The translations under genes were made by a program, and so were the position numbers. A stretch of DNA of 64,000 nucleotides from Pycnopodia helianthoides. Its lineage: Eukaryota > Echinodermata > Asteroidea > Forcipulatida > Asteriidae. The first letter of the stretch is position 1. Every line of letters starts with the position of its first letter. Below the pieces are notes generated by a model that was not told the origin of the DNA, made no database searches, and saw nothing but the letters and a program-made list of their open reading frames with translations. The stretch covers positions 16,788,787 to 16,852,786 of the forward strand of contig CM063248.1 of the NCBI GenBank assembly GCA_032158295.1. The letters run 5' to 3'. Shown in pieces: positions 756 through 30,172 of the stretch.

Positions 756-30172
<29,417 letters not shown>

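Follow-up and report, generated by a model that had tools for sequence, protein, structure and literature searches.

LINEs of the CR1/L2 type carry a 3' microsatellite tail in place of poly(A). The 2A sequences of APE-type LINEs have reportedly been described by Heras in 2006 (L1Tc), Odon in 2013 and Luke in 2014; the 2013 work is said to have found active 2A in LINE clades, and 2A in single-ORF LINEs is reportedly known. In those systems, a canonical octapeptide reportedly likewise forms the N-terminal 2A of a single-ORF endonuclease-reverse transcriptase (EN-RT). The LINE family described here differs from them in having a separate signal-peptide-like leader start, and most modules read in the LINEs of this genome do without the conserved glutamate, Glu14. 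Residues are numbered throughout such that the motif studied here reads G11-D12-I13-E14-L15-N16-P17-G18-P19, with p14 and p15 standing for positions 14 and 15.

In viral StopGo sequences, i.e., (D/G/C/N)(V/I)ExNPGP, p14 is almost exclusively Glu, to which a structural role is given, namely stacking on a tunnel base; His is a rare but fully active natural variant at this position and Gln is partly active (PMC12846837, partial text). The 2A-like signal sequences of sea-urchin NLRs are reported to mediate dual targeting (PMC4981915, partial text). An ER signal and recoding are combined at the N-terminus in that system too, with two fates predicted for the downstream protein; there, however, one 26-residue segment does both jobs, whereas in the family studied here the two segments are well apart and followed by a LINE enzyme. 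Single-ORF CR1/L2 elements with an N-terminal PHD finger also have no ORF1, and the terms "2A-like" and "2A sequence" have zero occurrences in PMC4120745; in the present family, by contrast with those elements, no PHD finger was found. We consider it likely, from comparisons of sequence, that a StopGo/2A module of about 34 residues, existing across LINEs in two main interchangeable forms, parts a signal-like leader from EN-RT in a family of single-ORF, CR1/L2-like LINEs. The motif would probably make the ribosome release the leader peptide and then carry on to the enzyme.

A six-frame reading of the window, i.e., the whole 64,000-nucleotide stretch of Pycnopodia helianthoides DNA that was analysed (assembly GCA_032158295.1, contig CM063248.1, positions 16,788,787 to 16,852,786), gave NPGP at one place only, within DIELNPGP. 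As an earlier note on this DNA had stated, and as can be read directly from the sequence, this octapeptide is immediately preceded by ILSSCG and its Asp is codon 61 of a 1021-codon endonuclease/RT frame, namely the TTG-started ORF at 24165-27230. The D(V/I)ExNPGP core and both coding parts share one frame, with endonuclease matches to PF03372/PF14529 and an RVT_1 reverse transcriptase (Table 1). The EN-RT frame is open from 24036 to its stop, 961 codons being counted from the motif, and a domain search of the window ORF found no PHD finger. With the viral sequences the motif shares D12, I13, E14, N16-P19 and G11 (PMC12846837, partial text). The same note had held Leu at p15 and the CG before the Asp to be unusual. 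Neither is, since human rotavirus C GDIELNPGP is tabulated at about 82% activity (PMC8623073, partial text) and Leu is among the residues favoured at viral p15 (P, S, T, L, E, K, Q and A); L-rich viral lead-ins, moreover, terminate in (A/S/C)G (PMC12846837, partial text). Compared by eye with the L-rich classes in that text, ILSSCG has the same CG ending and is not L-rich; L-rich modules ending in (A/S/C)G are also found elsewhere in this genome.

Table 1. Features of the window, positions being counted from its first nucleotide.
Feature	Position	Strand	Remark
LINE copy, about 4.03 kb	23864..27897	+	flanks diverge between insertions outside these limits
First in-frame ATG of the element, ...CAACATGGCG...	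23868..23870	+	leader start in other copies
Junction with 33 nt (11 codons) missing from the window copy	23888..23889	+	33 nt present in 8/8 other distinct copies
In-frame TAA interrupting the leader (window copy)	24033..24035	+	not in 8/8 other copies
Next in-frame ATG, with A at -3 and the motif Asp 54 codons on	24183..24185	+	
Conserved lead-in, 26 codons	24267..24344	+	counterpart of KFGxxPVxYYxNSTxTFxxxLxxxG in related families
StopGo/2A core octapeptide DIELNPGP	24345..24368	+	GAC ATT GAA CTA AAC CCT GGA CCA; predicted skip between G and P
APE-type endonuclease domain PF03372	24393..25052	+	residues 77-296 of the TTG-started ORF
Reverse transcriptase domain PF00078	25911..26636	+	residues 583-824 of the TTG-started ORF
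TAA stop ending the EN-RT frame	27228..27230	+	
(AAT)n 3' tail	27870..27897	+	
Tandem array, 21-bp unit x10.6	37534-37756		
Tandem array, 32-bp unit x15.1	49841-50322		
Tandem array, 15-bp unit x28.2	60764-61179		

Comparison with the 479-Mb assembly (742 contigs) identified other copies of the element which, where aligned over at least 3.3 kb, displayed 99.45-99.75% DNA identity. Nine distinct motif-spanning copies were fetched, i.e., those of the window, L002, L003, L004, L005, L006, L009 (the same as L026), L010 and L012 (the same as L016); a count of eleven was discarded, as L009/L026 and L012/L016 are the same places. Judging by their flanks, L004/L009 and L006/L010 are duplicates of single insertions, leaving six independent insertions besides that in the window. 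L010 and L006 lie head to tail at G000:C10, 4,027 bases apart and with a common 5' flank, which points to local duplication of a single insertion; at C268, three copies (L004, L007 and L009) share a 3' flank and likewise appear to be local duplications of one insertion. All copies begin within about 4-10 bases of the ATG equivalent to 23868, with flanks that differ beyond, the window element starting a few bases before its own ATG and ending in an (AAT)n tail. Such a tail was present in all 14 of the 3'-end rows printed, some rows duplicating one insertion. Target-site duplications were sought in seven rows, none being convincing (longest match, 7 nt).

Because the 5' end lies within bases of the ATG, there is no room for an ORF1, and the element is a single-ORF one. 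With an APE endonuclease and RT in one frame and a microsatellite tail, it is a putative CR1/L2-like LINE. The earlier proposal of an N-terminal 2A in a LINE that has no separate ORF1 is well supported by sequence, the core being canonical, p11 Gly, the conserved lead-in about 26 residues long and the same module present in many related LINEs. In the nine distinct copies there were zero nucleotide differences from the window within -90..+24 of the motif, an invariance that is unsurprising and of little power on selection given that the copies are near-identical and young.

The leader frame was open to the motif in all eight other fetched copies, over 170 codons from the first ATG, which is an ATG in seven copies and GTG in L005. 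Leaders of the family begin with a signal-peptide-like hydrophobic segment, located about 145 codons from the 2A core. It is the hydrophobic core of this segment that was lost with the 11 codons missing from the window copy. Owing to this gap and to the TAA at 24033 in the leader, the frame that starts with the family ATG is broken in the window copy, contrary to the previous description of this copy as an intact LINE. Its EN-RT frame, nevertheless, is open; the corresponding frame reached the common stop in one of the eight other copies and met an earlier stop in seven. The window element is an ordinary, damaged member of the module-bearing LINE set. An element start at 23889 was ruled out, the break there being the 33-nt gap of the window copy, and the idea that a window subfamily had lost its signal peptide was rejected, as among the fetched copies only the window copy had done so.

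Going by the frame of the other copies, the product released on skipping would be a leader of about 177 residues with a secretory start, in place of the basic 67-residue peptide that had been proposed, which needs a TTG start. Initiation of the window copy at ATG 24183, the sole in-frame ATG between TAA 24033 and the motif, would come near to that proposal, yielding a basic peptide of 61 residues plus the enzyme. In keeping with this, the frame is open from 24036, there is an A at -3 and 54 codons run uninterrupted up to the motif. Against it, the frame of the upstream ATG 23868 ends at TAA 24033 and six other-frame ATGs lie between 23889 and 24183. Moreover, since the long leader is open in all eight other copies, a product initiated at 24183 would be a by-product of damage. 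We find such a start improbable.

The pattern D[VIM]xxNPGP occurs in the genome above chance, with 187 matches (113 + 74) vs. 16 for a reversed control pattern. Of the 187, 100 were listed and read, and approximately 10 of these were judged to look like chance hits, with no lead-in or open frame. In the related own-genome families L017-L021, L024, L029 and L030 (37-49% protein identity), as well as in metagenomic relatives, the octapeptide is preceded by the lead-in KFGxxPVxYYxNSTxTFxxxLxxxG or a looser form of it; the nearest related families, L011 and L022 (61-65% identity), appear to be 5'-truncated ahead of the module. The string KFGxxPVxYYxNSTxTF is not named among the viral lead-in motifs in the partial text of PMC12846837. 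Gly11 is shared by the window motif and by all of the 35 distinct class-1 modules, the class pattern being blind to this residue. A PHD-like finger separates module and endonuclease in some of the related families, scoring above the Pfam cut-off in L044 and below it in L019 and L024.

Among nine hand-chosen LINEs (36 pairs), ungapped pairwise identity was 0.08 for positions -60..-27, 0.36 for -26..-1, 0.76 for the octamer and 0.14 for +9..+30. The conserved island thus spans about one ribosomal exit tunnel and ends at the predicted skip site, which is the pattern expected of a nascent-chain signal. It also argues that the sequence of the leader may matter little beyond its start.

A second class of modules combines the lead-in KWSKHGQTxxxIPGHDPPxDITxxM with octamers of the MD[VI]S type, and Glu14, Pro15 and Gly11 are all absent from it (L039, L041, L045, L047, L052, L054, L065, L068, L075, L080, L105 and L120). 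At least 356 open codons lie downstream in L039, L041, L047 and L054, and endonuclease domains were found in L041 and L047; several of the other loci have early stops. In the 10 distinct modules of this class, p14 is Ser in nine and Gln in one, and p15 is V, L, S, T or I.

Modules in proteins were called over nine residues, with seven scored positions and a threshold of at least 5; p14 and p15 were unscored, to avoid selecting on p14. The proteins were taken from three whole-protein homology searches (best 120 of 149, 301 and 133 hits). A module was present in 53 of 238 listed proteins and, after the third search, in 65 of 357, always counting the best 120 per search; P0132, with EPNPGP, fell below the threshold and was counted as module-less. 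The 65 modules retained p13 (I/V), p17 and p18 without exception, p19 in 64, p16 in 61, p12 in 55 and p11 in 51, figures that are partly built in, as inclusion needs five of these seven fixed positions. By comparison, p14 was E in 29, H in 16, Q in 10, S in 5, K in 3, and N and A in one each. The conservation of DxExNPGP that had been put forward as a check therefore holds in part, with the Asp and NPGP largely kept and the Glu not. In the 100 listed of the 187 genome matches, p14 was S in 24, E in 22, N in 15, Q in 11, H in 9, C and D in 5 each, and others in 9. Thus, compared with viral StopGo (PMC12846837, partial text), E14 is replaced in 36 of the 65 LINE modules from listed proteins, mostly together with P15.

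Indeed, Pro15 was found in 4 of 29 modules with Glu14 vs. 27 of 36 without it (p = 1e-6). This association was followed on a 64-row tree of the sequence downstream of the module, made by a quick method with SH-aLRT as its only support and comprising 53 module-bearing proteins, 11 own-genome families chosen for more than 280 open codons and no named reference elements; 16 of its 61 inner branches are open, eight rows cover less than half of the columns kept, and the 12 module proteins added by the third search are outside it. On this tree the E/non-E state changed 17 times, at least 13 of the changes being forced by starred branches, and the E label was weakly clustered (14 and 20 of 500 shuffles were as low). 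In 13 independent pairs differing in E14, Pro at p15 ran counter to E14 in a median of 9 and in parallel with it in none (sign test, median p = 0.004, range 0.001-0.031). When the columns between 14 ahead of p11 and 8 beyond p19 were scanned in 51 of the 53 proteins (the other two having under 15 residues upstream), p15 was the column most tied to E14, with a permutation p of 5e-4, the minimum for 2000 shuffles, vs. 0.008 for the next column. Among 42 distinct own-genome modules outside the tree, Pro15 occurred in 1 of 14 with E14 vs. 21 of 28 without, near-copies remaining among them such that a p value there would be too small.

We read these data as two interchangeable main forms of what is predicted to be one module, with either Glu14 and a non-proline p15, or H/Q/K/S/N and others at p14 and Pro15. 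Glu stacking in the tunnel would be the first solution, and an extra proline, giving x-P-N-P-G-P, the second. Two yadokarivirus 2A-like motifs are given as H14-P15 (PMC10817634, partial text). Bacterial stalling is enhanced when a proline stall site is preceded by H, K, Q, R or W, unlike C, G, L, S or T (PMC5009743, partial text). By analogy, this preference may be linked to the H, Q and K that make up 29 of the 36 Glu14 substitutes in modules of the listed proteins; Ser, with 5 of the 36, goes against such a link. Also against the two-form scheme are the PGHDPPxDITxxM class and P0250, neither of which has E14 or P15, the latter being a class-2 relative outside the tree with Ala14-Val15, which fits neither form.

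The case against skipping across the whole set is that more than half of the modules are without Glu14, and many might for that reason fail to skip. Only those with Glu14, the window's included, would then be active, and the Glu-less ones would have decayed or been re-purposed, e.g., as a protein motif before the endonuclease. This would agree with the near-exclusive E14 of viral StopGo and with the effect of E14Q, which lowers activity to 56% or 26% (PMC12846837, partial text), as well as with the inactivity of iflavirus MDNPNPGP, which is N14-P15, though this sequence also lacks D12 and V/I13 (PMC2885027, partial text). One own-genome class, furthermore, is without both E14 and P15. Decay, however, is at odds with the retention of I/V13, P17 and G18 in the Glu-less modules of listed proteins and with the frames of Glu-less L038, L041, L047, L048, L054 and L056, in which 499 codons run without a stop up to the limit of the stretch fetched. 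The tree also shows repeated switches between E and non-E, compensated at p15. Finally, natural viral variants with H14 or H16 are over 95% active and T12 has 88.5% activity (PMC12846837, partial text), and all three of these rare residues occur among the LINE modules of listed proteins. Restriction of skipping to Glu14 modules is in our view unlikely, though it is the alternative to which we give the most weight.

The interchangeable-form reading is joined by a second feature, i.e., the nature of the leaders. An N-terminus was called signal-like by a hydropathy rule rather than a trained predictor, as a charge-free stretch of ten residues with a mean hydropathy of at least 2.0 within residues 2-36. 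Among listed proteins, such an N-terminus was present in 35 of the 53 that bear a module and have a leader of at least 50 residues, compared with 5 of the 47 that have a long N-terminus but no module (p = 1e-8). The proportion in all module-less listed proteins (7 of 282) is too easy a control, because most of these have no N-terminal extension, and the comparison to rely on is that with long N-termini. When an endonuclease landmark was required in both groups, the counts were 23 of 36 vs. 4 of 32 (p = 2e-5), and under stricter length cut-offs for the controls 23 of 36 vs. 4 of 23 (p = 5e-4) or 3 of 15 (p = 0.006). Hydrophobic starts were about equally common with Glu14 (10 of 15) and without it (13 of 21). 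On visual inspection of 16 own-genome loci, a signal-like hydrophobic start after an in-frame Met was seen in 11; these 11 represent nine families, L039/L047 and L041/L054 being pairs.

As in sea-urchin NLRs, the coupling of signal-like N-termini to modules might simply reflect a hydrophobic 2A lead-in acting as the signal, and P0196, P0178 and P0134 indeed have only an L-rich lead-in. Many proteins, however, including those of the window family, have a separate hydrophobic start well before the lead-in, and we doubt that this explanation accounts for the coupling. A signal peptide on uncut EN-RT would send the enzyme to the ER, and it is therefore easier to believe that modules lacking Glu14 skip as well. 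The same consideration weighs against the view that NPGP modules never skip in LINEs and are kept for a need of the uncut protein, e.g., in folding or binding. Full-length products are conceivable, but conservation begins about one tunnel length upstream and ends at the skip site, and active 2A has reportedly been found in LINE clades. We hold a complete lack of skipping to be very improbable.

Under the preferred reading, in which the module separates a secretory leader from EN-RT, SRP would take the ribosome to the ER and the family leader would enter the translocon. Once the module had stalled at NPG within the exit tunnel, the leader would be released to the ER side and translation would resume at the Pro, such that EN-RT, without a signal, would be finished in the cytosol. 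Skipping failures would route some full-length protein to the ER, i.e., dual targeting as reported for the sea-urchin NLRs. In artificial ER-targeted polyproteins, sequence upstream of 2A can block skipping in the translocon, and a longer native context insulates against this (PMC2978324, partial text); by analogy, the long conserved lead-in may serve to insulate skipping from upstream sequence. More tentatively, and as a possibility that falls short of probable, LINEs may use a second StopGo code, D[I/V]-[H/Q/K/S/N/C/D]-P-NPGP, which has been exchanged many times and is coupled to secretory leaders, with the leader going to the ER, EN-RT to the cytosol and unskipped EN-RT to the secretory route.

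Should Glu14 be exchangeable for Pro15, the textbook search motif would miss over half of the StopGo sites in the sampled LINEs, and dozens of ready-made sequences would offer a natural alternative to the tunnel stacking of Glu14 (PMC12846837, partial text). With a signal peptide on a LINE leader, it would also need explaining why a retrotransposon directs some of its product to the ER. In the passages of the literature searched, we found neither Glu14-less LINE modules nor a signal peptide ahead of a LINE 2A, though Odon 2013, Luke 2014 and Rao 2025 could contain either. We file the window motif as one of a known kind, the p14/p15 pattern and the secretory leaders appearing to be new.

Two related families, seen at 23864-23879 of the window and at the 5' ends of L017-L020, start approximately 3-10 bases from an ATGGCG start codon (CAACATGGCGCTCAG; AACGATGGCGTTCAG) and thus have almost no 5' UTR. 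The start context of these ends resembles the TISU/YY1 element. Such a context could provide both promoter and short-leader initiation from one element.
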